Below, piece after piece: positions 7,211 to 61,027 of a stretch of DNA of 64,000 nt (its first letter is position 1; the number at the start of each line of letters is the position of its first letter). The stretch is from Tricholoma matsutake. Taxonomy: Eukaryota > Basidiomycota > Agaricomycetes > Agaricales > Tricholomataceae. Made by a program: the position numbers and the translations under genes. The stretch is taken from positions 620,001 through 684,000 of the forward strand of contig AP026549.1 in NCBI GenBank assembly GCA_026075535.2. The letters are read 5' to 3'. The notes beneath the pieces were generated by a model that was given only the letters and a program-made list of their open reading frames with translations, was not told the origin of the DNA and did no database searches.

Positions 7211-8339
7211 TGATGATACTCAACCTGGGAAAACCACCAAAACTGCCAATGATATTTGCACAAGTCAGAGGAAGGGCACGAGGCGTTCTGAATGTTTGTG
7301 GTCTGACCAATGGGAAGACAACTAGTTGGTACTAGTCGTAAAGGTAGTTCTATAAGAGAGGAAGGTGTTTAGCATGGTCTGATGGAGTATCGATCAATAT
7401 CAAGGATGATCGATGAGATTGATGGTGAACAATGTTTATCGTTGAGGGTCAATGTGTGAATTCTAAGGACTTTTGGTGGATCAATAGTATACAAAGATTA
7501 TTGCTGATGGCTAGGAAGTGCTGGAGTGGTTACTAGTGCTAACGATAAGAGGATCAAAAGTCGATCAAGGTTGATGATGGTCGCAGAGGTTTCTCATCAA
7601 TCAAGAAAACCTGTAGAAGTTTCGATTGTTTAGAGGATAGATCTGATTCTTAGAACTTTATATGAGATGATATGTGAAGACGATTTCTTGTTTTTCCAAG
7701 TAGATACTACAGAGTTTTATATGTTTTAAAAGAAACTTCCTAAAATGGTATAAGAAACATGTGTAGAACATGAGGCAAAAGATATGAGTTAAGACACGAG
7801 GCCAAAATGAGACTGGAATCCAAACAAGACAGAGATATATCATATGACAAAAGAGTAATAAAGGGAAAGAACTAAAAAGGGACTGTCCTTTGTGTATAAA
7901 CCGCCCTAAGTCTCACAATAATCTGTCCAGTGGGTTCTGTACATGATAGGGACTTGGAATGAGGCTGACCTACTATCAGCAGGTTTGAGCACAAGTTGGA
8001 ATACTCCCTGGCGCATGGTATTCCACCATTTAGATAATGAATGTGGTGCCCGATGTCGCTTGTAGTTTCTCGATGTTGATCGATAACACTCAACGATGGT
8101 CAACAATGTTCAATCATGGTCGTGGTGGTTCGAAGTTGATTGGGGATGCTTGGTGTTTGTTCAGAGGGATCTTAGGGTGTTTTGAGGTAGTCCTAAAGTT
8201 GTGCGATGTGGTTTCTAAGTATGATCAATGTCGCTGGTGATGTTTCGATGCAGTCGATATGATATTGCGATCAATAGACCTGGTCAGGAATGTGGTTGTA
8301 ATTTTGAATTGGCCTCTGAGCCGAGGAGATAACCTATCA
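7211..8339 (-). repeat. Solo LTR (TGATAGG family), reverse orientation
   Basis: Read on the reverse strand it starts TGATAGG and ends GAGTATCATCA. It shares long segments with the solo LTRs at 43316 and 48992, for example the tract around 7870-8040. It is flanked by GTGG (7207-7210) and GCGG (8340-8343), a 4-bp target duplication with one change. Deleting the LTR and one duplicate restores the RNase H frame of element C (DFATGVVLLM). Confidence 0.9.
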
Positions 8340-9349
8340 GCGGTATTATTGATGCTATGTGAAGATGACAAATGGCATCCTTGTGCATATTTGTCCTGAG
8401 GGTTGAATGATGTGGAGAGGAATTATGATGTGCATGACAAAGAGATGTTGGGGATAATATGAGCGTTGGAGGCATGGAGGCATTATTTGGAGGGATTTAT
8501 GCATCAGATTGAGATCTGGACGGATCATCAAAATCTGCAATACTTCATGTCAGCTAAAAAGCTTAATTGCCAGCAAGTGTGTTGAGCGCTATTCCTATTG
8601 CATTTCAATTTTCACTTGGTCCACAAAGCAGGAAGCTTAATGAGGAAAGCAGATGCATTATCCAGACATATTGATCACAAAAGGGGGGTGGAGGAGGACA
8701 ATAAGAATGTTACCTTACTCAAACCCAAGTACTTTCACATTTGTGCTATGCATCAATGGAGTAGGGTGTGTGGGCACCTACTCCAGTAGTCATGTGACCA
8801 CGTAGTTGATAGACAGTGTTGCACATGTACATAGTCATGCTTAGGCTATCACTACCACATCCACTGCATTGCTATAGGAGATGGATCTGCTGTCTCCATC
8901 AAGGACATCTATTAATAGATGGCTTGGAAGTGGAAATGTTGTCTAAAATTAGACAATGTTTGGATATGGATGATGAGGTAGTGGAAGCTGTGAAAGCTAT
9001 AAAGGAAGAGAAGAAGGGTAATATTGAAGGAGATGAATGGATTGAGGAGCAAGGGTTGGTGTTATTTTAAGGAAATGTGTATGTGCTAAAGGATCAGGAT
9101 TTGCGAAGGGAGATCATCTGGTTACATCATAGCTGGACACCTGGGGAGATGGAAAATGTTGGAATTGGTGATGAGAAATTATTGGTGGCCCAGAATTTCT
9201 AAACATGTGTTGGGGTATGTAGATGGATGTGATACATGCATGAGGGGGAAGAAATTTGCGGAGAAACCTGCAGGAAAATTAATGCCAAACCCTATACCTA
9301 CAGCGCCATGGCAAGATATATCTGTGGATTTTATCACTGGATTACCCAA
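8340..9349 (+). pseudogene. RNase H and integrase N-terminal part of element C
   Basis: Resumes element C pol after the solo LTR. The RNase H core reads KWHPCAYLS, NYDVHDKEMLGII and IWTDHQNLQYF. The tether HKAGSLMRKADALSR lies around 8625, reached through a frameshift near 8590. The integrase zinc-binding region follows at about 9060-9245 (LRREIIWLHH, NYWWPRISKHV, CDTCMRGKK), with another shift near 9140. The integrase core begins with the first catalytic Asp in DISVDFITGLP and stops at 9349, where element A is inserted. The remaining core lies at 19328 onward. In-frame stops at RNase H positions show that it is non-coding today. Confidence 0.85.
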
Positions 9350-10467
9350 TGATAGGTCCACTGTGCGCTCTAAACTCTGGGACCATATCCAGAGGCATCA
9401 AAACATCAAAACGCATGCTCCCAACCCTTACGAACCCCACAACACTGCTCCAAAACCTTTTCGATCGACTTCAAACGACTTCAAACAATCTTGAATGACT
9501 TCAAACAATATTGCAGCACTTCAAATGCCTTTGGCCACTGTACACCAATCGCACCGCCCTTTGGATACATGCAGCACACCTGGTAAGAGTTAGTGCATCA
9601 CATATTGAGCACCACCGGACACAAGGAGATACAACGACGGGATTTTAGGACGTGATTGTGGTGCTTTGACACCTTGATGATATATTAGATCAATGGGGAC
9701 AGGTACCAGTGATAAATCATGTCTCTAGACATTTCCCTTCTTATCATCTTTCATTTATTCTATGATTTGCAAAGATTCTCTATTGTTTTATATCTTGCCT
9801 CATGTATTCCTCATGTTTTATTTCCTTTTAGTATCACTTCTCCCAAACATATATAGCCTTGTACTAGCTACTTAAAAAAAAAGAATATATCGTCCTCTCA
9901 CACCAATCGTCTGATTTAAGAGCTATTCTCTTGAGTCCAAGCATCTCAACTTAGTCTCGACATTCAGTGTTTTATGCCGAATTTCCTCGAACTCCTCATA
10001 CTAGCTTCTCGAAACTATTGCATATTGTCTATCCTCTCTAGACACCTTTCTACGTCCTCATAGTCTATCCTCAGTCACTGTCAAAGGCGTCTTTGTCTTC
10101 TATAAAGGCCTTCAAACTTCTTTGAACTTCATTGCACCTCTTCATGCCTCATCACATCTCTCTGAATACTCATTGAACTTCATTAAATTTCCCTCAAACA
10201 TTATTGCAGCACTTTGTACACCCTCAATTATTATCGAACATCATTGCAGCGCTTCAAATACTTTCGAGCCTCATTGAACCTCATTGCACCTCTTCGAACT
10301 TCATTGCACCTCATTGCACCTCATTGCACACCCTTTAGAGTCGTTTTCATACCCCTGGTTTACAGCAGTGATATTTAGTACCACCTTGCAACCTTCCTCT
10401 AACTAGCGTTATACCATTCGAGCCCTTATTGTGGGTTTTGTTTGGGTTTCCTGGTCGAGTATCATCA
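9350..10467 (+). repeat. 5' LTR of element A
   Basis: Starts TGATAGGTCCAC and ends GAGTATCATCA. Matches 18179-19327 closely throughout. The two differ mainly by C/T changes and by copy number of a short repeat built on gactt(c/t)(a/g)aatgat around 9470-9515, which makes this copy 31 bp shorter. Confidence 0.95.
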
Positions 10468-10505: not shown

Positions 10506-11777
10506 TTGCCTAATCCATCTCGAATCTCCCAGCTTAGGCCAACACAAGCTAGAAACCTACAGATCGACACTCGTCACACCTTTGAATCTCTTGAACAATC
10601 GGGAGATATTCTTATACCTGTTTCCGAAGCAGAATCGACTCATCGTCGACTATTCCCTTCACCAATATCATCGCCCTCAACATCATCTTCTACTTCTTCG
10701 TCTTCGTCATCTACATCTTCATTCATCCTTCCAACAACTTTGACTCCTCTACCATCATTCATACAAGTTTTAACTCCTACTCCTAGAAACATCGCATTCA
10801 TGACTATGCAAGCAACAATGCCAGCTTGTGGTCATTCCACGGCTCCGAAATCCGATCCTACCCACCCATGAGAACTTCACAGATACTTTAACAAGCTTGA
10901 ATTGCTTTTCTCGGCATGCAATGTCACGAACTCAGAAGATATGAAGAAGCACGCTTGTCGCTACCTCGATATCGATATTTCTGAACTCTGGGAATTGATT
11001 CCAGAATATGACGCTGGCATTTTGTTCCAGAACTTTCGCATCGCAATTCACCAACTGTACCCCAGTTCTGAAGATGATCAGAAATGGTCGATTTTGGACA
11101 TGGACAAACTTGTCAGCAAACAACTTCACATAGGTATTTACAATGCGAGCGATTTGGGATTATACTACTGGTCATTCTATAACATTACAAAGTTTCTATC
11201 TACTAAAGGCAGGATTTCCAACGTGGAACAAAGCAGAGCCTTTGTCAGGGGTTTCCAACCAGGCTTATGGGCTAGAATCGCTCGACAACTTGAACTAAAA
11301 TTCCCCAATCACTACCCTGACGACCCCTACCCACTTGACGATATTCACGCAGCGGCAAAATTCGTTTTAGCGGGATCTATCGGCTCGGATTCAACATCGC
11401 TACTTAGTTCACATTCTTCAGCACCTTTGGCAATCCCAACAACATCGACATCTTTGCCCCAAATTAAATCAGAAGACCTTACGGCAATCCTCGAGAAATT
11501 TGCAGCCACTCTTGTAACAGCTTTAGCAGGTTCGAAGACCATGAATGCTACTCGACCTAACACTGGATTTCATTCAGAACAACTCAAAACATTAGTTTGC
11601 ATCTTTTGTGGGCTTACAGGACATTTCATTAGCGACTGCTTGGTTTGCCAGTCTTATATCAACGAAGGAAAGTGTAAGAAGAACACGGAAGGCAAAATTG
11701 TTCTCCCAAACATTCAATTCACTCCACAAAGCATCCCCGGTCATTTTATCAAGGACAGGATTGACGAATGGACTTGA
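10506..11777 (+). pseudogene. Gag of element A (one internal TGA)
   Basis: A single frame of about 420 codons broken only by TGA at 10869-10871, in the context NP-stop-EL where the family I recall has NPREL, so CGA to TGA. The N-terminal 80 residues are Ser/Thr/Pro-rich. The gag core follows with YFNKLELLF, KKHACRYLDID, SELWELIPEY and AFVRGFQPGLW. A CCHC knuckle (CIFCGLTGHFISDC) sits at about 11601-11640, then CQSYINEGKCKKN. The homologue in element B (62279-63110, reverse) is clearly related along its whole length. Expected role: particle formation and RNA binding. The frame continues after the 11775 stop into the linker and protease. Confidence 0.85.
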
Positions 11778-12910
11778 CGAAACCCTCCATCTAACCTTAC
11801 CCCTTCGCTAATGTATAATATTGCACCTTCAACAGTTTCTTCAACACCATCCAAGGGTGTTTACCAAATTAACAACTTATCCACAATGGCCAAAGATCGT
11901 ATCGCACAACTCAAACAAGAGATATATGCTTTGCAAAGTGGTAGACCTTTTATGCAAACTGATTTGAATGTGCCAGCGGCTCCTACCTCATGGCCCTCGA
12001 TCCCTGCGATGGTCAAACAATTTGTCCCACAACCACCGGCACCATCAATATTGTCCACAGCGACCAACCCACCGACTTCAAATATGGCACCATCTTTGAT
12101 CTCCGAGTGATCATTGCAACCAGTAATACATCCCTACAACGGCGCTAAAGAAAACTCGTACCTACCTCCTCACAAACGTAACTTCACATTGATAGGCAAA
12201 GCAAAAGACGGCCCATCATACCATACCCAAGCTCCCATTAAAAAGGAAAAAATCACCAAAAACATATTCACTTGATCGATGAAAACACCGATTATCACTC
12301 TAAGCCCCAAAGAATTACTTTTGCTATTGCCCAAAGTTCATGTGAAATGGAAAGAACAGGTCACTGCGCGTTGTACCCAACAACCCGAAGGAAATAACGC
12401 TACGAATCTCCTTCACGATGACATATTCATAATTGATGACCCTTATGAAACCTATATTAGCAGTCTTCACCCTGGAGAAATACCCAAACCTTTTATTACA
12501 GCGAAGGAATCACATTCTATTAGATCAGTTATTATGAACGTCAACAGAAGAAATCCAGTCAAAAGTGTAGTCGACCCAGGTTCATCAATCATCGCAATGT
12601 CGGAAGAAGTCTGTCACGAACTCGGTCTTGCATACGATCCTTCGATACACATCCCTCTGCAATTGGATAATGGTGGTATTGACCAGAGTCTAGGTTTGGC
12701 ATGAAATGTACCTTGCAAAGTTGGTAGCATCACTCTCTATATGCAGATACACATCATCCGCAATCCAGCATACTATATTCTGCTCGGACAACCATTCGAT
12801 GTTCTCACAGAGAGTACGGTCAAGAATTATTGAAAAGAAGCACAGACAATAACTATATTTGATCCGAACTCGACATGATCCTGCGCTATTCTGACTATTC
12901 CCCGATCTAA
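11778..12910 (+). pseudogene. Linker and aspartic protease of element A
   Basis: Same frame as gag, interrupted by further TGA codons at about 12108, 12273, 12702 and 12834. A leucine/alanine coil (MAKDRIAQLKQEIYALQSGR) opens the linker, followed by a Pro-rich stretch. The segment MKTPIITLSPKELL and the protease motif VVDPGSSIIAMS (near 12570) are conserved in element B (MKTPIITLTSEELL, VIDPGSLIIAM). The D-P-G-S/T box replaces the usual D-S-G-A/T, as in gypsy elements of this branch. I recall similar fungal retroelement regions being labelled DUF4100, but could not check. Confidence 0.75.
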
Positions 12911-15040
12911 TTGACGAAGAAGAGTAGTTCACAAGGATTTTTGCAACTAGAGGATAAAATCTCAGAGAATAACCAGTGTGCCCTCATTATTTCTTTTGAC
13001 CATTCTAATTGCTCTATAACTATTGAGTACACTGCGATTATTCCTGATATTGAATCCTTGAACTCTTCGAACCCTATTTCCTTTTCTTCGATCCTTGCGA
13101 ATTTATATTTAATGGCTAGTTGCCAGTATGCAACATATTTATCAGGCCCCACGGCCACCTCTATGCACGACTTCACTATCATGTCCCCTCCCCACATCTC
13201 ATCAACCAACTCTATATACCCAACCTTTGCAGCATTGAAGAAGAAATACAAACCAGTTGCACGGAAAGTTTGGCCAGTTATTACTGAACTACCCGATCGA
13301 TTTTGCATCATTCGAACAATCACTGGCGACCCCCTCGAGCAAATGCCAAAACTCAATCCTCAACCCCCATCATTCGTCCCTTCTACCCGATATACACTTG
13401 AACGCAAAGCTATTATCAACAAAAACCATTCCAGCAATTTTCTATGGCCAGAAGAACGAAAGCTTATGCACGATTTTATTCGAAATCACGAAACAGGTTT
13501 CGCATGGACCAAACAAGAACAAGGAAGCTTCCGCCCCAACTTCTTTCCTCCTATAGAATTCCCTGTTATTCCTCACACTCCATGGGTTGAACATAATATC
13601 CCTATACCCCCTGGGCTGTATGAACAGATCTGCAGGATGCTAAAAAAGAAGATAGAAGCAGGAGTATACGAGTCATTGAACTCATTGTATCGGTCGCAAT
13701 GGTTTTGTGTTGCGAAGAAAGATGCGAAATCACTTCGAATTGTTCACAGTCTCGAGCCTCTTAATCGAGTAACGATACAGCACTCTGGCGTCATCCCGAT
13801 CCCAGAGCATCTAGCCGAACAATTTGGTGGACGTGCTTGCAGTGGAATGTTGGACTTATATGTCGCATTCGATGAAAGGAAAGTCGGAGAATCATCTCGA
13901 GATCTAATGACGTTTCAGATGCCTTTCAGAGTGCTTCGAATCGTCACTCTACCAATGGGTTGGATGAACTCAGTCCCAATCTTACACAACAATGTAATGT
14001 TTATCCTACAACCTGAAATCCCTCATATCACCATCCCTTACATCGACGACACACCAGTTAAGGGTCCAAAATCAGAATATCAAACTATCGGAGGATCTTA
14101 TGAGATGATCGCCGATAATCCAGGCATTTGACGTTTCATTTGGGAACATTTCAGGAATCTAAATCGTATAGTCCAATGCATGAAGTATTGCGGAGGAACC
14201 TTTTCGGGTCCGAAACTTTACCTTTGCATTTCTGAAATAATCGTTCTAGGTCATCGATGCAATATCAAAGGTCGTATGGCTGATCCCACTCGCATCGCAG
14301 CAGTTAGCAAGTGGGGGCCTTGTCGAAGTCTTACCAAAGTCAAGGCATTTCTAGGAACCATTGGAGTTTGTTGTATCTTTATTTGGAACTTTGCTCAACA
14401 TGCTACAGCTCTAATACACCTTATGCAAAAAGATGTCCCTTTCGATTTTGGACCAACACAAATTGCAGCACAGGAAGACCTGAAGCAAGCATTGATCAAT
14501 TCCCCAGCAATTCGCACTATTGACTATTCATCCAACGCCCCAGTTATCCTATCTGTCAATACCTCGTACATCACTATTGACTTCTTTCTTGCACAATGCA
14601 ATCCCAACAACCTTCAAAAGCTATATTACAGTCGATTCAGATTGATCACGCTTAACAACTGTGAATCCTGGTTTTCACAAGCGAAACTCGAACTCTATGG
14701 TCTATATCGTGCTCTTGGAGCACTTCAATTGTACCTAATAGGGGTCCGGAACCTCATCATCGAAGTCGATGCAAGGTATATCAAAGGCATGCTCTCAAAC
14801 CCTGATATCGCACCTAGCGCTAGCATAAATTGATGGATCGTCTCAATCCTTACTTTTCATTTCATGTTGGTTCATGTCGCAGGTACACATCATGGTCCAG
14901 ACGGACTTTCAAGACGTCCTCCACAAGATGAAGATGATCAGTTTGATAATGAAAATGATTTCGGAGACTGGATCAAACATCTTCACGGTTTTGTACACCA
15001 AATCAATCCCGTTACAACTCGACCTTTCACTTCCTATTGA
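12911..15040 (+). pseudogene. Reverse transcriptase and RNase H of element A
   Basis: A frameshift near 12910-12940 separates this from protease; in element B the two are in one frame. RT is open from 12911 to 14131 (406 codons), with SQWFCVAKKDAKSLRIVHSL, LNRVTIQHSGVIP, LPMGWMNSVPI and an intact catalytic YIDD at 14039-14050. TGA at 14129-14131 then stands where B has Gln. The frame continues through MKYCGGTFSGPKLYL, KVKAFLGTIG and the RNase H region (YGLYRALGALQLYL, VEVDARYIKGML). A TGA at 14831 replaces Arg in N-R-WIVSIL, and the C-terminal tether reads HHGPDGLSRRP. The D/N change in VILSVNTSY (B: LLVDTSH) may hit an RNase H metal ligand. Confidence 0.85.
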
Positions 15041-16689: not shown

Positions 16690-18031
16690 TTATTCCTCCA
16701 TCATAACTTCTAAAAGTTCTATCTCCCTACCCAGAACCTCCATCTCCACCTTCTTCTGCACCAATTTAGTGGCAAGGATCTTCCGTTGAACGACCCATTT
16801 GTTGCTAATGACCTCAATATTGTCATTCAACGATACCTCTTTTGCTTTCCCTTTCCCTTTTGACTGCTTTTTGTGCTTCGATTTTGGCGTCGACAGTTTT
16901 GATGGTCCCACAACCGCCTCCTCTGACTCGACTGGCCAGACAACTCGAATGCAAAGAGCTACAATAATCCAATCAGAAAAATTTGAAAAAAGTCACGTAG
17001 TCGAACAAGAAACACACCTGGTTTCGGCTGCAAAACATCTTTCGCAGCCCCGAATTTCCTCGCCTCACCTTTTCAAAACCCTTTCCTTGACACCCATCCC
17101 AATAGCACCCCTGCGCTGCCTGAGTGCTCTACGTGCACTTCGGGGCTCCCTCCTTGACAATGCACAATGGCTGGGATATCATCCTAGCACATCAATCACA
17201 CTGCGAAATGATTAGCACACCGAAAAACCCATTGAAAACAAAATGAATACTCAATGGACCTTCAAAGTTGAGCAGTCCGCTTGTTGCGAACTTTACTCGC
17301 TTGGACTCCATGGAGTCCTCGACTTCGTCCTCCCCATCTTCGCCTCCCTCGATCTCCACTACCTTTCGTTTTGTCACCTGCACAATGGGTAGCTCTTCCT
17401 CTTCCTCCTCCTCATCCTCTTCCTCAACCCCTGCTTCTGCCTCCTCGATCAATTTAGCTTCGGCCGCTAGTTGCTCATTCTGTCGCAACAACTCAGCCTT
17501 CGAGAGTGTCTTCACATGAAACTCACCTAGCGCTGTTTTGTGAGCCTCAAGAAGAAGGACCTTGCAATGGTCCAGTCTCGCCCTTTTAGCAGCAGCTGCT
17601 GCCTCCTGAGCTAGCTCCTCCTTCTCCCGAATCCACCTCACCTCTTCCTTGGCCTCAGCCCATGCTTTCGCCTCAGCAGCTTCTCGATCTTCATGTTCCA
17701 CTTCTTCACGCAACTCCGAAAACAACAGCTCGGCACCCCATGAAAGCCATTCGTGCTGGGCCAATGGCTGGTACAGCTCGAAAACTTCATCAACGACCTT
17801 TTGAATGGCTGGATCGCACTCTTTGCCCAGATTGTCAGTGAGCTCATCATATTCAGCCTAAGACCAAATGTTTTAAGCCAACCATACGACGAAATGAATG
17901 CAGGAACATACCATCCTGTCGCAAAAACCCTTCCCCCACACTTCAAAGTCCAAATCTTCGGTGGCATTGCACTCAGGCATCGATTTGGCGTACTCGAAGA
18001 TGTCGGTATTGAGTTCGGCGAGGAGAGACAT
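16690..18031 (-). pseudogene. Antisense accessory gene of element A (coiled-coil, Cys-cluster protein)
   Basis: Four exons inferred on the reverse strand: 18031-17912 (120 nt), 17857-17255, 17200-17018 and 16958-16690. The separating introns are 54, 54 and 59 bp. Exon 1 starts MSLLAELN and contains YAKSMPEC and WGKGFC. Exon 2 is a long Ala/Glu/Lys coiled coil, then an acidic run and KFATSGLLNFEGP. Exon 3 is a Cys cluster in which this copy has two stops (C-D-stop-C, C-T-stop-S) and has lost one Cys. Exon 4 has a lysine-rich tract (SKGKGKAKEV) and a C-terminal coil. Intron 2 keeps a GCTAATC branch site and CAG, but its donor reads TTGAGT where B has GTAAGT. The exon 3/4 phase does not close here. 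Function unknown; a nuclear nucleic-acid-binding regulator is a guess from the Cys cluster and basic tract. Confidence 0.8.
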
Positions 18032-18167
18032 AACGAAAAGTAACTATCGAGAGTTAAGAGGTTGAGAAAGGAGAGCGAGAAGTTTTCGAGTTTGTTTACA
18101 GCTTCAACACAATCACACATTTCACACATGACTCCGATCGGCTGACTGGGACAGTCAGGATTTCAGT
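18032..18167 (-). promoter_or_regulatory. Upstream region of accessory gene (A)
   Basis: 147 bp separate the start codon from the 3' LTR, against 146 bp in B. Both carry the palindrome CTGACT-GTCCC-AGTCAG (here 18142-18158) and a pyrimidine-rich leader just before ATG. This is the only place a promoter could lie unless the LTR itself fires antisense. Confidence 0.5.
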
Positions 18168-18178
18168 AAGGGGGAGGA
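18168..18178 (+). other. Polypurine tract of element A
   Basis: AAGGGGGAGGA abuts the first base of the 3' LTR. Element B has the equivalent tract at 55383-55394 on the reverse strand. Confidence 0.85.
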
Positions 18179-19327
18179 TGATAGGTCCACTGTGCACTCT
18201 AAACTCTGGGACCATATCCAGAGGCATCAAAACATCAAAACACACGCTTCCAACCCCTACGAACCCCGTGACACCGCTCCGAAACTATTTCGATCAACTT
18301 CGAATGACTTTGAATGATCTTGAATGACTTTGAATGATTTTGAATGACTTTGAATGATATTGCAGCACTTCAAATGCCTTCGGCCGCTGTACACCAATCG
18401 CACCGCCATTTGGATACATGCAGCACACCTGGTAAGAGTTAGTGCATCGCATATCGAGCACCACCGGACACAAGGAGATACAATGACAGGATTTTAGGAC
18501 GCGATTGTGGCGCTTTGACACCTTGATGATATATTAGATCAATGGGGACAGGTACCAGTGATAAATCATGTCTCTAGACATTTCCCTTCTTATCATCTTT
18601 CATTTATTCTATGATTTGCAAAGATTCTCTATTGTTTTATATCTTGCCTCATGTATTCCTCATGTTTTATTTCCTTTTAGTATCACTTGTCCCAAACATA
18701 TATAGCCTTGTACTAGCTACTTAAAAAAAAAGAATACATCGTCCTCTCACACCAATCGTCTGATTTAAGAGCTATTCTCTTGAGTCCAAGCATCTCAACT
18801 TAGTCTCGAAATTCAGTGTTTTATGCCGAATTTCCTCGAACTCCTCATACTAGCTTCTCGAAACTATTGCATATTGTCTATCCTCTCTAGACACCTTTCT
18901 ATGTCCTCATAGTCTATCCTCAGTCACTGTCAAAGGCGTCTTTGTCTTCTATAAAGGCCTTTGAACTTCTTCACACTTCATTGCACCTCTTTGCACCTCA
19001 TCGCATCTCTTTGAATACTCATTGAACTTCATTAAATTTCCCTCAAACATTATCACAGCACTTTGTACACCCTTGATTATTATCAAACTTCTCTTGAACA
19101 TCATCGCAGCACTTCAAATACTTTTGAGCCTCATCGAACCTCATTGCACCTCTTCGAACTTCATTGCACCTCATTGCACCTTATTGCACACCCTTTAGAG
19201 TTGTTTTCATACCCCTGGTTTACAGCGGTGATATTTAGTACCACCTTGCAACCTTCCTCTAACTAGCATTATACCATTCGAGCCCTTATTGTGGGTTTTG
19301 TTTGGGTTTCCTGGTCCAGTATCATCA
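18179..19327 (+). repeat. 3' LTR of element A
   Basis: TGATAGGTCCAC...AGTATCATCA, 1149 bp, aligned end to end with 9350-10467. Followed by CTCA (diverged target duplicate) and then element C integrase. Confidence 0.95.
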
Positions 19328-20449
19328 CTCAGGCTCAAGGGTACAATGCAATATTTGTAGTATATGACCGCTTCACAAAGGAGGTCCATATTATTCCTAC
19401 TACTATGCAAACCTCATCATTGGGCTTGGTGCACCTCTATCTAAATCAGGTATGGCAGTTACATGGATTACCTGATACCGTTATCTCTGATCATGGACCA
19501 CAATTTGCTGCAGTGTTTATGTGAGAACTAAATAACATATTGGGAATTCAAAGCAAATTATCTACAGCATATCACCCACAGACTGATGGGCAGACAGAGA
19601 AAATGAATCAGGAGTTGGAGCAGTACCTATGTATGTTTGTCAACTACTGACAGACCGACTGGCCCAAATGGCTGGTGATTGCCAGACTTTCCCACAATAA
19701 TAAATTCCATTCAGCTACGCGTATGTCACCCTTTTTTGCAAATTATGGGTATCATCCTTGTATGGGAGTAGAACCCAGAAGGGAGGTCAAAGTACAGTTG
19801 GTAGAAGATTTTGTATCTAAGATGCAAAAGGTACAAGAGGAAGCGGAGGCAGCATTGAAGAAACCATGTGATGACATGATGCAACATGCAGATTGTACTC
19901 GACGCACGCTCCAGAGTACAAAGTTGGTGACTTGGTATGGCTAAGTACCAAGAACCTAAATATTCCATGACCTTCAAGGAAACTTATGGAGAAACAAGTT
20001 GGCCCATACACAATCTCTAAAGTGATCTCACCTTATGCGGTAGTGCTAAAGTTACCTGATCATTTAAGATTGATCCCGAGATTAATGTATCCCACCTACG
20101 CCCTTACCGTCCGCCCACTATTCCTGGCCAACAAACTACTCCACAACCTCCGATAATAGTAGAAGGTGCTCCAGAATACATAGTTGAAGAAATTCTAGAC
20201 TCATGTCTTTGACGGAACAAATTGGAGTTCTTAATAAAGTAGAAAAACTATACCGACAAAAATAATTTGTGGAAGCCTGAAGAGAATTGTAAGCGAGCAT
20301 GTAACATGATCGCCCAATTGTTTAAACATAATCTGAATGCTCTGCATTGCATTGTGAGAATGGTGTATGAGGGGATGAGATTCCAGCCTTACCAAAATTT
20401 CACAGAGGGGACAGATGCAATATTTTCTCACCTGGAAGTCGAGGCATAA
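19328..20449 (+). pseudogene. Integrase core and chromodomain of element C
   Basis: Continues the integrase cut at 9349. QAQGYNAIFVVYDRFTK follows the first Asp region. VISDHGPQF gives the second catalytic Asp and [19 protein letters not shown] the Glu, so the D-D-E set is present. Stops interrupt at 19522 and about 19648. A GPYTIS-type integrase tail follows in shifted frames. From about 20165 a chromodomain reads EYIVEEILDS, then TGA where Arg is expected, RNKLEFLIK, then TAG where Trp is expected, and KNYTDKNNLWKPEEN. A chromodomain would direct integration to modified histones. It places element C among the chromoviruses, the group of fungal Tf1 and marY1 as I recall. Confidence 0.88.
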
Positions 20450-32321: not shown

Positions 32322-33831
32322 GGTGTTTGCTGGGAGCTGTTTATTCAACAGGAAGGTTTCTAGGACATAATACAGAACAGTATACAAGCGTTGAGTAGTG
32401 TAGTACTCAGTGTACTACTTGAGTCTTGGTCTGTTACACAGAACTGAATACACAAATGTTAATCCTATCGGAGGATGACTGAAAAGTGCTACTTGAATAT
32501 GATTGGATAGAATGATGAACTTGAATGGCTATTCAGTAATAGCTCAGACAAATTTACAGTATACTTGGGCTTGTATTCACTACTTGGGCTGACCTGTGTT
32601 TCCCACAGAAACACAGCCTTAGAAACTTGTTTTAAGACTTCTAATGTGTATATCCTTTGGATATTCTTAATATGTATGTAAAAGAAATGTCAAGGAAATA
32701 TTTTACATGTATCCAAGCTGTATCTGCAAGGAACATAAAGGGTGTATTCTACAATGTTTCTTTCAGATCCCTTCTGGAAACATTTTTCATGTTCCCTTTG
32801 TGTAAGTTAAAGAAACACTTTTTATGTAATTATGCCTGTATCTGCCGAAAACATTTAACATGTGATTTTATTATGTGTTTCCTAGGGATACATGTGTAAC
32901 CATGGTAACCCCTTTGTTCTTTGCATGTATCCATAGTAAACACATAATAAAATATATGTCAAGTGTTTTTTGCAGATACAGCCATAATTACATAAAAAGT
33001 GTTTCCTTAACTTACACAAAGGGAACATGAAAAATGTTTCCAGAAGGGATCTGAAAGAAACATTGTAGAATACACCTTTTATGTTCCTTGCAGATACAGC
33101 TTGGATACATGTAAAATATTTCCTTGACATTTCTTTTACATACATATTAAGAATATCCAAAGGATATACACATCAGAAGTCTTAAAACAAGTTTCTAAGG
33201 CTGTGTTTCTGTGGGAAACACAGGTCAGCCCCAGTAGTGATTGGTGTCTACATAGAGGTATAAACCTCAAGGTGAATCTGGGGTGAGTAATCTGTGGGGG
33301 GTAAACTGACACCCAGAGCTACTTTGGTCCCTTTTATACAATGGGCTACCTAATATGGAAAGTTCCTTTCTAAAAGGTAGAACAATGGGTTTACCAAGCC
33401 TGTAATACAATAAGACCATAAAAAGAAGCAAGAGATTATGTGAGTATAGTTTCCAAAATGGGAAAGGCTGTGTAGAACAATGTAGAAAGTGGATCCTAGT
33501 ACAATCAAGATTGTGCTCAGGCTCTGTATAAGTAACTGTATTAATGTGTACTGTACCTAGTACAATCAAGATTGTGCTGCAGGTAAGTAAGTACAGATCA
33601 ATAAATAAGTAACTAATGAAGCTCACCTCAGTCTCTGTATAAGTGACTGAGGTGGTAATGTAACTACCAAGCATATATATACGTGTGTACTGTGTAAAAA
33701 AGGGCAGGTATGAATGAAGACAAGATAAGGGGGAACTATGCCATGGATCAACCATGCATATCAAATGGAATCCTAAAAATAGCACACACATTAAATGCAT
33801 CAAAAGTGAGACTCCCAGTGCAATTTCAACA
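32322..33831 (-). repeat. Putative 3' LTR of copia-2, interrupted by a fold-back
   Basis: On the reverse strand a purine tract GTGAGGAGGAG is followed at 33831 by TGTTGAAATTGC, a good LTR start, 60 bp after the pol stop. The far end is a guess (TGTTTGCTGG at 32322), since no second copy is present. Without the fold-back it would be about 850 bp. Confidence 0.4.
32578..33239. mobile_element. 662-bp fold-back (MITE-like) element
   Basis: Two arms of about 300 bp are near-perfect inverted repeats around a short centre at about 32885-32930, starting CACTACTTGGGCTGACCTG and ending with its complement. Flanked by ATT on both sides (32575-32577, 33240-33242), a possible 3-bp target duplication. No coding capacity beyond mirror-image frames. 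Confidence 0.8.
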
Positions 33832-43315: not shown

Positions 43316-44499
43316 TGATAGGTTGTCCCCTTGGCTCAAAGGCCAATTCACCATTTCAGCCACATTCTAATCATATCAGATAACTCGCACGAGGTCCCAG
43401 AAGCAGCGCGACCACTCCCGACCAAGTCTACCAAGCGCAATATTGTATCAAATGCGATTGAGCATCGTATCAAATGCGGTCGAGCATCGTCAAATGCGAT
43501 CGAGCATCATATCGAACACGATTGAACATTGTTGAATATTGTATCAAATGCAGTCGAGCATTGTCAAACGCGGTCGAGCATCGTTGAGCGTCATCGATTG
43601 CTATCGAGAGACTGAGCGACATCGGGCACCACATTTGTTATCTATATGGTGGAATACCATGCGCCAGGAAGTATTCCAACTCATGCTCAAACCTGCTGAT
43701 AGTAGGTCAGCCTCGTTCCAAGTCCCTATCGTGCACAGAACCCACTGGATGCATTATTGTGAGACTTAGTGCGGTTTATACACAAAGGACAGTCCCCTTT
43801 TAGTTCTATACCCTTTATTACTCTTTCATCATATGATATATATCTCTCTTGTTCGGATTCCAGTCTCCTTTTTGGCCTTGTGCCTTAACTCATATCTTTT
43901 GCCTCATGTTCTACACATGTTCTCTAGCCTTTTTAGGTACTTTCTTTATTTTATATAAAAAGATGTACTAGATACAAAGAAAAAGAAGAAAGTCGTCGTC
44001 TTCCTCCCAGATCACAGTGATTTGAGAGTTCAGTTTAGTCTTATTCAGTCTAAAGTTTGGTGTTTTATGCTAAACTTCCTTGAAATTCCTCACATTACGC
44101 TATTTTTGCTCTCGCTTCCCTCAATTAGCCTTTTCTTCACTTCTACTACTTCCCTGATCTTGCGTCCAAACATATCTGCGCACTCGAAATTCCTCGAAAC
44201 TTCTTTGAAAAATATTGCCACATCTCGAAAAGCATCGCCACATCTTGAAAAGCATTGCCACATCTCGAAAATCATCGCAAAGTCTTGCAAATCATCGCAA
44301 CCCCTCGAAAATCATCGCAAGTCCTCGAAACACATTCTTTTAGCCTCAAACTGCTTTGACAAGCAGTTGTTTTATGACTATTTGACGGTCGGTCTGACAG
44401 GTGACATCTAGAGGGCCTCGCAACCTTCCTCTGACTCATGTTATACCATCTGAAGCCATTTTGTGGGTTTTGTTTGGGTTTCTGGGTTGAGTATCATCA
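43316..44499 (+). repeat. Solo LTR (TGATAGG family)
   Basis: 1184 bp, TGATAGGTTGTC...GAGTATCATCA, flanked by a perfect 4-bp duplication ATGG (43312-43315, 44500-44503). Strongly similar to the reverse-oriented LTR at 48992, and also to 7211. Contains CGA-rich short repeats around 43440-43620 and 44180-44340. Confidence 0.92.
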
Positions 44500-48991: not shown

Positions 48992-50075
48992 TGATGATAC
49001 TCAACCCAGGAAAACCACCTAAACTGCCGATGAGGCAATCGATGATATTTGCGACAAGTCAGAGGAAGGTTGCGAGTCATTCTGAATGTTTGTGGCCCAA
49101 CTGATGGGAAGATAACTAGTTGGTACTAGTTGTGAAGGTAGTGCTATGAGAGACGAAGGTGTTTGGTGCTGTCCAATCGAGTATCGATGGCAAACGGGTT
49201 TATCGTCGATGGTCGATGTGTGAAATCTGGTGACCTTTTGCTAGGTTGATAGTATACAAAGGGTATGGCAAATGGCTATGAAGTGTTGGAAGGGTTGCTA
49301 GTGCTAATGACGAGAGGATCGAGGGAGAATCGAGGATGCGATGATTGCAGAGGTTTCTTGTCAATTGAGAAAACCCATAGAGACTTAGATTGTTTTAGAA
49401 AGTTGATCGGATGCTTAGAACTGTATACGAGACAATAGGTGAAGATGATTTCTTGTATTTCCAAGTAGATACTACAGAGTTTTATATGTTTTAAAGAAAC
49501 TTCCTAAAATGGAATGAGAAACATGTGTAGAACATGAGGCAAAAGATATGAGTTAAGGCACAAGGCCAAAAAGGAGACTGGAATCCGAACAAGAAAGATA
49601 TATATCATATGATGAAAGAGTAATAAAGGGTATAGAACTAAAAGGGGACTGTCCTTTGTGTATAAACCGCACTAAGTCTCGCAATAATGCATCCAGCGGG
49701 TTCTGTGCACGATAGGGACTTGGAACGAGGCTGACCTACTATCAGCAGGTTTGAGCATGAGTTGGAATACTTCCTGGCGCATGGTATTCCACCATATAGA
49801 TAACAAATGTGGCGCCTGATGTCGCTCACAGTCTCTTGATATTGATCAATGATGCTCGATGATGCTCGACGATGCTTGATTGTGTTGAATACGATGCTCG
49901 ACCGCGTTCGGTATGATGCTCAACAATGTTTGATCGTGTTCGATACGATATCGCGCTTGGTAGACTTGGTTGGGAGTGGTCGTGCTGCTGCTGGGACCTC
50001 ATGTGAGTTATCTGATGTGATTAGAATGTGGTCGAAATGGTGAATCGGCCTTTGAGCAGAGGAGACAACCTATCA
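48992..50075 (-). repeat. Solo LTR (TGATAGG family), reverse orientation
   Basis: 1084 bp. Reverse strand TGATAGGTTGTCTCC...GAGTATCATCA. Perfect 4-bp duplication ATGG (48988-48991 and 50076-50079). Closest relative in the window is 43316-44499. Confidence 0.92.
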
Positions 50076-55402: not shown

Positions 55403-55528
55403 CTGACTGTCCCAGTCAGCTGATCCGAAACATGTGATGTCACGAGGTCGTGTTGAAAATGATAAACAAACATCGAACCACTTATTTCCTTCCTCTCTCA
55501 ATTGTTCTCCCTACCTCAAATCTTCAGT
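55403..55528 (+). promoter_or_regulatory. Upstream region of accessory gene (B)
   Basis: Palindrome CTGACT-GTCCC-AGTCAG at 55403-55419 and a pyrimidine-rich leader (TTTCCTTCCTCTCTCAATTG) before the ATG. Both features and the spacing to the LTR are shared with element A. Confidence 0.5.
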
Positions 55529-57312
55529 ATGTCTCTCTTAGCTCAACTGAACGCTGAGGTCCTCGAGTATGCCAAGTCCATGCCTGAATGCAGTGTGGCG
55601 GAAGACATCGATTTTGAGGTGTGGGGTAAGGGTTTTTGCAAGAAGATGGTACATTTTCGTCTTTTTCCTTTTGGTTTGATCTACTGAAACGTCTTGTGCA
55701 GGCTGAATATGATGAGTTGGCAGACGATCTCGGCAAAGAATGCAAACAGGCTGTCCAAAAGGTCGTCGACAAGGCATTTGAACTATTTAAGCTGATGGCA
55801 CATCGGGAATGGGTTTTGTGGGGCAGAGACTTGTTGTTTTTGGATCTGAAGGAGGAAATCAAGCTGGAGGAATGAGAGGCAATGGATAGGCGTCGACGGG
55901 AAGACAAGGAGACAGCGAGATGGGTGGCGGCAGCACAGAAGGCGGAGAGAATGCAAGAGCGCAGGGCTGCTATCATCAAGGTGCGATGAGCGCTTCTCAA
56001 GAGTTTCCGTGCAAAGACGCTTTCAAAGGAGGCATTGTGGGAGTGGAATGCAGAGGTCAAGGCAGAGGCGAAGGCGATCGAGGTAGCAGAACTCACTGAT
56101 GATGACGAGGGTGAAGTTGGACAAGGGGAGTTGGTAGAGCTGGGGAAGTGAAAGGTGGGAGATGTGGAAGACAGTGATGTGGAGTTGGAGATAGAGGAGG
56201 TGAATGCGAAGTGTGCGAAGTTCGCTGAGAGCGGACTGCTCGAGTTCGAGGGCCCAGTAAGTTGTTGAGTTCTGTCTTGTCCTTTCCAGTTCGCTAATTG
56301 ACTTTTTCGTAGTGCAATCATTGCACCAAGATGCAGTTGCAGCCTCCATGTATTGTCGAGAAGGGGGCGCCGAAGTGCATCAAGTGCATGCAAGCGGTCC
56401 AAGGCTGCTACTGGGAGGGGGTCTCGAGACGAGGGGTGCACAAGGAGGATGTGCCAAAACACAGGGGTCGAAAGCCTAGTGTTTGAAGGTCCAGTCCATG
56501 GTTATGTAACAGTCTTTTGGAATTTTGAGATGTAATCTGCTTGTTAAAGCCTTACAACCTATCCTGGAATTTCCAGATTTTTTGTACACAATTTCAATAA
56601 ATGATTGAAAAGGTTTGTCATTATGCCTCAGTGGTTTTTACAGAATTAAACATATGAAACATAAAACAATTTTTCCAGTCTATACATTTTCCGAGGTTTT
56701 AAGAAAAATGTATGAACTGGAAAATTTGTTTTGTGTTTAATAGGTTTAATTCTGTAAAGGTTACTGAAGCATAATGACAAAACATTTTTGGTCCTATCTT
56801 GACATTGTGTACAAAAAGTCCTGGAATGCCAGGATAAGTTGTAAGGCTTTAGCAAGCAGATTACATCTCAAAATTTGAGAAGACTGTTACATAACCATGG
56901 ACTGGACCTTCAAACACTACGAAAGGCCAAGGAAGCGACAATGGTGGTAGCGATGCGAGCGACGGCTGCAAAGGAGACTTCATGCCCAAAACCAGGTACA
57001 AGTGTCATTTGATGTGTTTCGAGCTCTCTAATCGATCATTTTAGTCATTCAAGTTTGTGCGGTGAGGGCAATCGAGCCCATTGAAAATGTTGCGGGGCCT
57101 TCAATGCTGTCAGGGGATAAGGCGAAGGGAAAGAAGTCGAAGGGAAAGGGGCAGGCGAAGGAGGTTTGAGAGGTGGAGGATAGCGAGGCGATGGACGAAG
57201 GGGTAGTGATGCATTGTCGATGCATTGCAGCAAGAGTGGTGGAGAGGCGAGTTGATTTGGAGATGTTGTTAGATGAGATAGAGGGGTTGGAAGGGTTGCT
57301 GGCTGAGTAGGA
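55529..57312 (+). pseudogene. Antisense accessory gene of element B (coiled-coil, six-Cys protein)
   Basis: Exons 55529-55648 (120 nt), 55702-56256, 56313-56995 (interrupted by a MITE) and 57045-57312. Introns are 53, 56 and 49 bp, with GTACAT, GTAAGT and GTACAA donors and CTAAT branch words in introns 2 and 3. Exon 1 starts MSLLAQLN with YAKSMPEC and WGKGFC, as in A. Exon 2 begins AEYDELADDLGKEC and is a coiled coil with at least three TGA stops. Exon 3 has C-x2-C-x8-C-x8-C-x2-C-x6-C (CNHC ... CIKC ... GCYW), close to the Zn2Cys6 pattern (x6 in place of the first x8) of fungal transcription factors. Exon 4 has SKGKGQAKEV, a stop, and a Leu/Glu-rich tail. The Cys cluster itself is intact. The exon 3/4 phase does not close without an indel. 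Confidence 0.82.
56479..56917. mobile_element. MITE with TA target duplication, Tc1/mariner-like
   Basis: Inverted ends GTGTTTGAAGGTCCAGTCCA and complement, extending with some mismatches through most of the 439 bp. Flanked by TA at 56477-56478 and 56918-56919. TA duplication is characteristic of the Tc1/mariner group. It sits in exon 3 of the accessory gene; removing it with one TA rejoins the exon. Confidence 0.88.
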
Positions 57313-57573: not shown

Positions 57574-59058
57574 CTAGTTGGGTTCGATATCTGGAAAATC
57601 TTTGTCTATGTCGGAGTCAACATCTGAAGTCTTTCAAAGTCCTTTGAGATGGTTCGAGTTGATGTCGAGGAAGTTCGGGGGAAGAGGGATGGACTTTCTG
57701 GTGAGATAGGGGAGGAGTCAGAATGCGGCGACGGGTCGATGAAGTACGGAACCATCTAATTCGCAAAGGATGTAAGCACCACCATAATTTCGTTCGATAA
57801 CAATGAGTGGGCCTAGGTATTGTGCATGCATCTTTCAATTGAGTGATTTCTCGATCTGTGTGTTTCGAAGTAGAACGAGGTCACCTTTCACAAAGTCATA
57901 ATCACGAATTGTTTGCTGGTGAACTTGTTCGAAGTGCTTTGCAGCTTCGAGCCATGCCGAAAAGACTTTCGAATGAAGGACTTCAAGGTCTGAGGATCTC
58001 TTCTGTAGGGCAATGGCACATCTGGCGATGAGGTCAGTAGTCGAGAGGATCGAAGCGGGAGGGGGTTGCAAGTAGGTGGCTTCGGAGATATCGAGGGGAA
58101 TGAGGGGGTGCGATCCTGTAATAATGAAGTAAGGGGAGCAACCCATACATTTACGAACTGTAACTTGTTCTGCCCAAAAGACTGAGTGCGCTCTGTTCGA
58201 CCATTTGCTTTGGTCTCCATTGATGGCTTTGAATAGTGATTTGCAAACGTCGAAGTGGCTTCGTTTGACGAGTCCATTGGCGTGAGAGTTGTAACCACTA
58301 ATGTGAACATGGTTAATATGGTAGTGCTTGGAGAGATACTCAATCGTGGCAATGAAAGCGCTTCCATTGTCACTTATGATCTCATAAAGAGAGCCCCATT
58401 GACAAATGATGTCTTCGAAGATCCAGTCACCAAGGGTTGTCACGTTCTTGTGTCGAAACTTGTGCCACTCTGGATATGTCAAGAGCAAACATTGGCCTTG
58501 GACGATGTACTTGAATCTGGCTGATGGAGGCATTTGCATAGTGTCGACATAAACTTTGCCGAATAGAGGAGCTGGCATTGCAACTATGGGGGGAATTAGA
58601 AGGTTTCACATCTGACGAACCTGGCAGAGATGGCATGTTTGAATATACCAGGCGATGTCAGCCTTCATGTTGGGCCACCAGAATTGTAAAGCAATCAGGG
58701 ACTTTGTAGTGAACACCATCTTGTGTCTGATGTCGTCGTGAGCTGCGTGAATGATTTCGAGGTGGCATTCGGGGATGGCGACAATTTTGTGAGTGCCATG
58801 GGAGTCTTTTCTCCATAGTTTGCCTGAATCTATAAAGAATTTGGTGCAATATTGGATGAAGGTAGCATATTCTGTGTCTGATAGATCGAGAGGTCGTACC
58901 AAGTCACCTAACCACTTTCGAACACGAAGTAGTTGTGTGTCATCCTTTTTTGCGTTGTTACTTTGTGGGATGCCTTCATAGGTAACTTCGTTCTGCTGAG
59001 TGATATCAGAGGAGAGGGCGAGTGTTAGTTGTTGTTGGAAGGGGAATGGCCGAGTCAA
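57574..59058 (-). pseudogene. Integrase of element B
   Basis: Zinc-binding domain: PECHLEIIHAAHDDIRHKM, WWPNMKADIAWYIQ and CHLCQ. The core is complete: KVYVDTMQMPPSARFKYI (first Asp), TLGDWIFEDIICQWGSLYEI, SDNGSAFIATIEYLSKHY (second Asp), and GYNSHANGLVKRSHFDVCKS. There A has Glu in GIIEQAHFD, but B has Lys, so the catalytic Glu is lost. From 58578 to 57835 the frame is open (247 codons). KGDLVLLRNTQIEKSLN is followed by a stop, and the tail runs to 57574 with SVLH-stop-PVAAFRLLP. Confidence 0.85.
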
Positions 59059-61027
59059 TATCGGGTTGATCTGGTGTACAAAGCCATGAAGTTGATCTAT
59101 CCAGTCTCCGAAGTCTTCTTCATTATCGAGCTGGCTGTCTTTGGCTTGTGGTGGATGTCACAAGAGTCCATCGGGACCATGATGGGTTCCTGCGACATGG
59201 ACGAGGGTGAAGTGAAAGGTGAGTATCGAAACAATCCAACGGTTTATACTAGCACTAGGTGCGATATCGGGGTTCGATAACATGCCTTGATGTACCTCAC
59301 GTCAACTTCAATGATAAGATTGCAAATGCCGATAATATAAAGTCAAAGGGCACCGAGGGCTTGATAAAGTCCATAGAGTTCGAGCTTTGGTTGCAAAAAT
59401 TGAGATTCGCAGTCGTTGAGCATAATGGAACTGAAATGGCTATAATAGCGCTTTCGAAGATTGTTGGGGTCGCATTGGGCGAGGAAAAAGCCGATGGCAA
59501 TGTGCGAAGTGTCGACCAATAGTATGACTGGTGCATTGGACAAATAGTCATGGCTGGCGAGGTGATAAGAGCTTGCTTCAAGTCTTCCTGTGCAGCAATT
59601 TGGCTCGGTCCGAACTTGAAAGGAACATCTTTTCAAGTGATGTGGATTAGAGCTGTGGCGCGATGAGCGAAGTTTTGAATAAAGGTATGACAAACTCCGA
59701 TTGTTCCTAAGAATGCTTTGACTTCAGTGAGCGATCGACAAGGTCCCCAATTGCTGACTGCTTCGATGCAGGTCGGGTTGACCATATGACCTTTGATGTT
59801 GCAACGATGACCTAGAACCATTATTTTGGGAACACAGAGAAAGAGCTTAGGGCCTGAAAACGTCCCTCCACAATACTTCATGCGCTGAATCACCCTGTTG
59901 AGGTTCTCAAGGTGCTCCCAGACAAACCTTTGAATTGTGGGACTCTCTGGAATCATCTTGTAGGCACCGCTGCAAAGTTGGTATCGAGACTTTGGGCCTT
60001 TGATCGGAATGTCGTCGATGTAGGGGATCGTGATGTAGGGGATTTCAGGTCGTAGGATATGCATGACGTCGTCGTGCATGATTGGGACTGAGTTTGTCCA
60101 ACCCATCGGAAGGGTGACAATGCGAAGTGTGCTGAAGGGTGTCTGGAATGTTGTTAGATTGTGAGAAGATTCAGCAACTTTCCTTTTGTTGAATGCTACG
60201 AAGAGGTCCAGCATTCCACCACATGATTGTCCACTGAACTGCTCTGCTAAGTGCTCAGGGATGGGAATGACGCCTGAGTGCTGGATCATAGCCTTGTTCA
60301 AAGGTTCGAGGCTGTGGATGAGTCGGAGCGCTTTGCCATCTTTCTTCACAACACCGAACCATCGTGATCAATACGAAGAGTTTGAGTGTTTGTAGACACC
60401 AGCTTTGAGCTTCTTCTTGATAATATTGCAGACTTCTTCATAAATGCCGGGGGGAATCAGGATGTTTCACTCGACCCAAGGGGTGTGAGGGATGACTGGG
60501 AATTCGATTGGGGGGAAGAAGTTGGGTTGGAAGCTGCCTCGTTCATTGTCGGTCCACACGAAGCCAGTTTTGTGGTTTCAAATGAAGTCGTGGTTGAGAT
60601 TTCGTTCTTTGGGCCATAGGAAATCACCTGGATGATTTTTGTCGACGATGGCCTTGCATTGGAGCGAATATCGAGGGGTGGGAGAGAAAGGTGGGGGACG
60701 AGGATTGAGTTTTGGCATATGTTCGCGTGGATCACCAGTGATCTTGCAAATGATGCAAAAGCGATTGGGAAGGTCGGCGATGACGGGTTGAATCTTCTGT
60801 GGGATGGGCTTGTACTTCTTCTTTGAAGCGGCGAGTGTCGGATAGAGAGAGTCGAATGTCGAGATATTGGAAGGGGAATAGATAGAAGAAGATTGCATAG
60901 GGGTTGCCATTGAGGTCAATGAATATGTCGCATACTGTTCGCTAGCCATTAAATATAAGTTCGCAATGATCAAAGAAGAGGAATAGTAGTTCAAAGTGTT
61001 CGAGGAGTCAATATCGGGAATGTCCAC
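59059..61027 (-). pseudogene. Reverse transcriptase and RNase H of element B
   Basis: An N-terminal region (FIISFDHSNPSITIEYTVDI, ANLYLMASEQYATY) continues in the protease frame. RT core: KKDGKALRLIHSLEPLNKAM, HSGVIPIPEHLAEQFSGQ, LPMGWTNSVPIMHDDVM, then the intact YIDD box within PYIDDIPIKGPKSRYQ near 60030. KYCGGTFSGPKLFLCVPKI follows. RNase H: VILLVDTSHIAIGFFLAQC, YGLYQALGAL. Gaps and shifts near 60350-60450 and 59640 break the frame. Compared with A the RT has drifted at many positions but keeps the same motifs. Confidence 0.85.

Follow-up and report, generated by a model that had tools for sequence, protein, structure and literature searches.

What could an intron-bearing gene, read against the direction of gag and pol, do for the LTR retrotransposon that carries it? 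Such antisense genes are rare in LTR retrotransposons. Their introns can outlast retrotransposition: the genomic RNA that serves as its template is sense-stranded and does not carry them as introns. We examined a 64,000-nucleotide stretch of Tricholoma matsutake chromosome 12 (620001-684000; the window), in which an initial annotation had described two copies of such a gene, and searched the same genome, which has 161,040,721 bases in 13 contigs. LTR elements make up 37.4% of the genome in assembly TMA_r1.1, according to the available text of PMC10211490.

The two copies lie in elements A and B, which are Ty3/gypsy LTR retrotransposons: two LTRs flank gag and pol, and in element B integrase follows the reverse transcriptase (RT) and RNase H. 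The main parts of element A are listed here.

9350..10467, plus strand: 5' LTR of element A
10872..11777, plus strand: gag fragment of element A, weak zinc-knuckle match under the Pfam cut-off
12276..14833, plus strand: pol pieces of element A, aspartyl protease and RNase H, Pfam scores just under the cut-off
18168..18178, plus strand: putative polypurine tract, read from the sequence, abutting the 3' LTR
18179..19327, plus strand: 3' LTR of element A, 92.1% identity to the 5' LTR with 31 gap columns

The RT stretch of element A, between protease and RNase H, was placed by DNA similarity to element B. The latter lies on the minus strand, with RT and RNase H pieces within 59343-60367 and the integrase H2C2 domain in 58606-59157; this succession of RT, RNase H and then the integrase zinc-binding domain is the Ty3/gypsy order. 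The H2C2 domain is the only Pfam match above the curated cut-off in the two elements, and the remaining scores presumably fall below it because the frames are broken. Element A spans about 10 kb overall with LTRs of about 1.1 kb, whereas marY1, a gypsy element of T. matsutake, has 6,047 bp and 426-bp LTRs in the available text of PMC10211490, sizes alone being compared.

Another gypsy element holds element A, inserted in the sense direction, within its integrase core; the flanks of element A (9190-9349 and 19328-19487) translate as ..SVDFITGLP and QAQGYNAIFVVYDRFTK.. of that core. Elsewhere, the window contains an inverted repeat at 32577-33240 (292-nt arms, 96% complementary, 80 nt between the arms) and a 316-nt inverted pair at 43606-43921 and 49520-49835 (97% alike), to which a stretch at 7860-8108 is related. 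The pair may consist of LTRs, or of fragments from another repeat family.

Between pol and the 3' LTR, elements A and B each contain a four-exon gene in antisense orientation.

17912..18031, minus strand: exon 1 of copy A, 120 nt, phase 0, ATG start
17858..17911, minus strand: intron 1 of copy A, GTATGT..TAG, 54 nt
17255..17857, minus strand: exon 2 of copy A, 603 nt, open
17201..17254, minus strand: intron 2 of copy A, donor TT, GCTAAT branch word, CAG acceptor
17018..17200, minus strand: exon 3 of copy A, 183 nt, cysteine cluster
16959..17017, minus strand: intron 3 of copy A, GTGTGT..TAG, 59 nt
16690..16958, minus strand: exon 4 of copy A, 269 nt, lysine-rich stretch, short C-terminal heptad-like stretch, stop TAA
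55529..55648, plus strand: exon 1 of copy B, 120 nt
55649-55701, plus strand: intron 1 of copy B, at the same place as in copy A
55702..56256, plus strand: exon 2 of copy B, with three stops
56257-56312, plus strand: intron 2 of copy B, at the same place as in copy A
56313..56995, plus strand: exon 3 of copy B, split by a fold-back insertion at about 56477-56919
56996-57044, plus strand: intron 3 of copy B, read by eye from the sequence
57045..57310, plus strand: exon 4 of copy B, read by eye from the sequence

The anatomy proposed in the initial annotation is confirmed. The 120-nt antisense exon 1 that it had described translates as MSLLAELN..YAKSMPEC..WGKGFC in copy A and MSLLAQLN..YAKSMPEC..WGKGFC in copy B, and comparison of the copies showed that all three introns sit at matching positions, as it had stated. 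Exon 2 of copy A encodes a conserved N-terminal part, a long helical stretch, an acidic stretch and basic KRKV/KRVKF words. The coiled coil, Cys cluster and lysine-rich tail named earlier were all found again, the coil in the form of coiled-coil-like helices. Two details stood in part. GCTAAT branch words, which had been claimed for the introns in general, are present in intron 2 of both copies, and introns 1 and 3 have looser branch-like words only; exon order and positions are retained in both copies as claimed, but not every splice signal is, as intron 2 of copy A starts with TT. We also corrected a first reading of the copy A intron 3 acceptor, which is the TAG ending at 16959, so that exon 4 occupies 16690-16958.

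Both window copies are dead, and neither is able to make the whole protein. Copy A has two stops in exon 3, a lost intron-2 donor (TT for GT) and a 1-nt deletion in exon 3 relative to most copies of its family, which have 184 nt there. In copy B, exon 2 contains three stops and exon 3 the fold-back insertion of about 0.44 kb. The fold-back element (56477-56919) has 140-nt arms that are 87% complementary; its flanks, CGAAAGCC and CGAAAGGCC, suggest a target duplication of 8-9 bp, and it is absent from six B-like copies compared.

These fossils belong to a large population. A check suggested at the outset, for the segment in further copies, was positive: own-genome searches listed at least 40, at least 41 and at least 137 partly overlapping matches, the last with protein query P0003 (35-57% identity; 134 of 958 candidates scored). 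Our first alignment comprised 30 family-A copies (copy A and L002-L030) and copy B. Twelve stretches from the P0003 matches, picked for divergence and few stops and not a random sample, added three families, and the resulting five (A, B, C66, D67 and E75) share exon order in this genome. Introns 1 and 2 are in phase 0 in all five; intron 3, which was measured in A, C66 and D67, has phase 1 in each of them. Most family-A copies have an intron 1 of 52-54 nt (GTATGT..TAG), an intron 2 of 53-54 nt (GTGAGT..TAG) that includes a CTAAT-like word, an exon 3 of 184 nt and an intron 3 of 55-62 nt (GT..TAG); when joined, the phases reach an exon-4 frame ending ..REIELLEVMMEE or a close variant.

Most copies of the antisense gene are dead, and the start and splice sites recur among them beyond what chance would give. 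Across 72 same-genome copies (A and B included), the ATG is present in 65, intron 1 has GT..AG borders in 65, and intron 2 is bounded by a donor-like word and AG in 59. Exon 1 is open in 60 of the 64 usable copies; among the 72, 55 keep exon 2 in phase and 12 have it open. Seven of the 72 pass the ATG, intron 1 and 2, and exon 2 tests together with an open exon 1. Of these seven, which were read through all four exons, three, all from family D67, have four open exons (406 codons) with GT..AG introns; there, exon 3 measures 214 nt and intron 3 is GTAAGT..TAG (54 nt). L066 was rejected as an intact copy for a stop in exon 4, and reading through the four exons gave no full-length model for L006, L040 or L043. 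CpG decay is the main killer of copies: of the 61 stops counted in the core exons, a count that takes in a few mislocated exon-3 cores, 35 are TGA at sites where CGA predominates in the family. On contig 6, two gene copies in opposite orientation (L070 and L071) lie 26 kb apart, and their exon 1 and exon 2 cores translate identically; the pair may stem from segmental duplication rather than transposition.

The gene keeps a fixed place in its element. Among the best 150 of 5,915 RNase H candidates, at least 77 have a listed gene match in antisense 1.5-8 kb downstream, and 65 of these matches sit 2.6-3.3 kb downstream; one of the same 150 has a listed gene match on the same strand, and none has one antisense upstream. 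Consistently, all five 10-kb contexts fetched had the gene antisense to gag-pol beside an LTR, as originally read in the window. We also inspected three places where the gene was expected but had no listed match: L084 holds the gene, and L083 and L085 hold unrelated sequence. By its antisense position between pol and the 3' LTR in many copies, the gene is an aORF-3R. The aORF-3R genes of plant Retand/Tat-type gypsy elements (Grande gene23, RIRE2 and Retand) likewise lie in antisense between pol and the 3' LTR, as described in the available parts of PMC7264820 and PMC11963269.

Is the protein itself maintained? We compared the families over cores of 40, 60 and 43 codons from exons 1, 2 and 3. 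The final run dropped 8, 3 and 11 of the 72 copies, respectively, because their cores were scrambled, shifted in frame, dissimilar to the others or mislocated; the exon-3 cores left out include those of L063-L065, L070 and L071, which were mislocated, and the exon-1 cores left out include four that were shifted in frame or dissimilar. Between families, pN/pS in the antisense frame is 0.23-0.48, with pS at 0.65-0.83 (near saturation) against pN at 0.17-0.34. None of 200 neutral simulations per pair and setting reached the observed pN/pS in nine of ten pairs, and one of 200 did in the tenth. An earlier run that included the mislocated exon-3 cores had the same outcome (0, 1 or 2 of 200 simulations per pair). 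Codon position 3 is the most divergent in 30 of 30 family-by-exon comparisons, the five families representing only about four independent lineages. These comparisons support selection on the protein between families.

The past selection claimed at first is thus supported between families and not within family B, whose decay looks neutral: pN/pS values of 0.31 and 0.37 for exons 1 and 2 fall within the range given by a neutral model that includes the CpG decay observed. We dropped within-family pN/pS of about 0.3 as a sign of selection, since neutral means under the CpG-share model are 0.36-0.58. In family A, exons 2 and 3 (0.35 and 0.32) lie below the neutral ranges, a difference weakened by shared ancestry. 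The within-family exon-3 set included mislocated cores, and the family B figure for that exon was not used.

Could the frame be the shadow of a sense-strand gene in an ordinary dead retrotransposon? Copies A and B are indeed broken, and element B has a 325-codon open sense-strand frame (55524-56501) opposite the antisense gene. This frame has no Pfam match, and we judge it a by-product. The antisense frame has the lowest mean pN/pS of the six (0.36), the other five ranging over 0.52-1.68 and the next, a sense frame, standing at 0.52. In exons 1 and 2, the sense frames are open in fewer copies and have higher pN/pS than the antisense frame; exon 3 alone does not separate the strands, with one sense frame open in 39 of 61 copies and the antisense frame in 37 of 61. 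We consider a shadow frame extremely improbable. Alternatively, the antisense transcript may matter as RNA, by forming double-stranded RNA or by interfering with sense transcription, with a secondary role for the protein; this possibility is raised for other elements in the available text of PMC7264820. Amino-acid-level selection, conserved Cys and Trp residues and conserved intron phases would be needless for such a role, which makes it improbable.

A further alternative concerns origin. The presence of introns points to capture of genomic DNA by the retroelement, and we found no relative in a named element, as would be expected if an ancestor had captured an intron-bearing host gene once, in antisense, and its descendants merely carried it along. 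A host gene confined to the two window copies, which the initial annotation had allowed for, does not fit the five families found, and no annotated host relative appeared in the protein searches. Moreover, selection persisted between families at near-saturated synonymous distance. This selection excludes passive carriage and largely refutes capture followed by mere carriage, which we rate as very improbable; capture of a host gene may nevertheless be how the gene arose.

The predicted protein has roughly 390-406 residues, about 390 in family A and 406 in D67. A cysteine cluster, C-x2-C-x8-C-x8-C-x2-C-x6-C, is kept across the five families; in a chosen set of 23 stop-free sequences, 12 columns never vary, including four Cys, and two further Cys are nearly invariant. 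An AlphaFold model of exon 2 (L075 copy, 26 sequences; mean pLDDT 75.5) has a helical N-terminus, with helices at 47-105 (59 residues) and then 109-133 (25 residues). For exon 3, AlphaFold produced no fold of the Cys cluster (mean pLDDT 43). Putative nuclear signals and a C-terminal coil were judged by eye. Pfam gave no family match for five pieces and 23 sequences of the protein. PDB sequence searches returned nothing convincing (best E 1.2 with exon 3 alone and 0.41 with an exon-3 profile), and Foldseek with the exon-2 model gave one meaningless match, a myosin at E 7.1.

The cluster is reminiscent of Zn2Cys6 (PF00172) in its six Cys, the order C-x2-C ... C-x2-C-x6-C, and the basic and coiled regions nearby. 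The first half of Zn2Cys6 is C-x2-C-x6-C, whereas the second spacing here is 8 rather than 6 residues (C-x2-C-x8-C), and the cluster lies in the C-terminal half. PF00172 was not among the Pfam families returned for the 23 sequences at E up to 10, with most matches above about 0.1 filtered.

Three protein searches returned 9, 1 and 11 proteins, 18 distinct ones including the query P0003, which are hypothetical or unnamed and lie on contigs of up to 253 kb. Several metagenome relatives extend from exon 2 beyond ..FEGPVS or the like, which marks the intron-2 donor, and end shortly after. In P0003 the frame stays open through intron 2 and continues into the whole Cys cluster, and P0002 reads through intron 1, its upstream ..ILTVPVSQ fitting the inverted-repeat stretch described below. 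No relative of P0002 was found among viral contigs, and a search with the Cys-cluster region of P0003 returned P0003 itself only. The gene has likely spread beyond Tricholoma.

A candidate target for the protein lies beside the polypurine tract.

18142..18158: inverted repeat in element A, perfect, 17 bp with 7-bp arms and a 3-bp spacer
55403..55419: the same inverted repeat, 17 bp, upstream of copy B

The repeat, CTGACTG-TCC-CAGTCAG, adjoins the putative polypurine tract, and in element A its far end is 127 nt upstream of the antisense ATG. With at most three mismatches it occurs in 69 of the 72 copies, exactly in 50, starting 117-135 nt before the ATG; it was not found in L003 (exon 1 mislocated), L029 and L072. 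Between-family identity is 93% for the repeat and 88% for the polypurine-tract segment, compared with 50% for the 5' UTR and 53% for exon 1 third positions, in an alignment that left out five copies beforehand and any with less than 190 nt upstream. The polypurine tract must be conserved for priming; conservation of the repeat has no reason so obvious. Genome-wide, the exact repeat occurs 282 times and its reversed control not once. Of the 57 repeats on contigs 1 and 2, 30 adjoin a gene match among the matches listed. The repeat contains no CGG triplets, which are usual in Zn2Cys6 sites. Its arms vary in family D67, L067 having matching changes on both arms and L068 and L069 mixed states. The arm-for-arm change in L067 may be compensatory; we did not count it as such, given the mixed states.

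The repeat also bears on a reading in which the gene is real and selected and its protein acts elsewhere, in counter-defence against host silencing or as a nucleocapsid-like RNA chaperone or integration-targeting factor, with the repeat serving plus-strand priming or RNA structure. Being very close to the polypurine tract, the repeat may serve reverse transcription; it is internal, occurs once per element in the window and lies 20 bp from the 3' LTR, and the protein matches no DNA-binding family. Linkage speaks against this reading. On contig 1, 17 of 30 repeats adjoin a gene match among the matches listed, and 5 of the other 13 were fetched and all lead into exon 1, so that repeat and gene are linked in all 22 cases examined. 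Such linkage is also compatible with action elsewhere, as gene and repeat share the element. We regard action elsewhere as a serious alternative and yet an unlikely one.

We therefore lean, at slightly better than an even chance, towards a true Ty3/gypsy accessory gene whose product would be an oligomeric nuclear protein that binds the DNA or RNA of the element and so controls how the element is expressed. The initial annotation had offered a nuclear or regulatory role as a guess; we infer such a role from the features above. An antisense mRNA would be transcribed from the 3' LTR side and spliced to encode a protein with the conserved N-terminal part, the long coiled-coil-like stretch and basic nuclear-signal-like words, followed in its C-terminal half by the cluster of six cysteines and by a lysine-rich tail with a second short coil at its end. 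This product would enter the nucleus, oligomerize through the coils and bind the element's DNA or RNA; the likeliest site would be the invariant inverted repeat by the polypurine tract, or its vicinity. Once bound, the protein would regulate the element's own expression. A more specific version is tentative, and we hold it to be possible but doubtful: a sequence-specific factor that has an unclassified zinc cluster, and is made from a spliced antisense transcript driven by the 3' LTR, would bind the 17-bp repeat and switch between antisense (quiet) and sense (mobile) expression, forming a latency-like circuit independent of HBZ of HTLV-1.

HBZ is a retroviral bZIP protein that is not known to have a Cys cluster, and the five pieces of the matsutake protein that were scanned gave no Pfam bZIP match. 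The HBZ gene is antisense and spliced, its transcripts start in the 3' LTR, and its product regulates transcription, as stated in the available parts of PMC1459196 and PMC3391691. The likeness is one of plan, not descent; the splice sites of the matsutake gene are conserved at the DNA level. Plant aORF-3R genes are kept in most copies and have been proposed to encode nuclear or DNA-binding regulators, in the available text of PMC7264820 and PMC11963269. The antisense ORFs of Retand carry a TRP28 domain thought to bind DNA (PMC11963269, in part), and Grande gene23 has antisense transcription from its own upstream promoter and a nuclear protein (PMC7264820, in part). The matsutake gene belongs to a different kingdom from Retand and had no TRP28 (PF04195) match among the five pieces scanned. 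It also has three introns, whereas the available parts of PMC7264820 and PMC11963269 describe none for plant aORF-3R, the word 'intron' being absent from both main texts; the former calls for a search for spliced antisense transcripts. Among fungi, brtn of Boty/BcGypsy1 (Botrytis and Sclerotinia) is an antisense gene in a gypsy element, likened here by its description only in the available text of PMC7264820 and PMC8365987. A literature search, mostly of titles and the starts of abstracts, found no description of an antisense intron-bearing gene in a fungal LTR element; what it did not turn up is the combination of three conserved introns and a paired repeat. As far as tested, the gene shares its plan with known antisense accessory genes but none of their domains.

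Antisense genes of LTR retrotransposons were already known, their function being called unknown in the available parts of the reviews PMC7264820 and PMC11963269. Here, the introns fix the coding strand, the five families allow selection to be measured and there is one candidate site, so that the question of self-regulation becomes testable in vitro. The gene offers a fungal parallel, in plan, to the HTLV-1 antisense regulator, and conservation of its predicted protein suggests that the element may make its own nuclear control protein.
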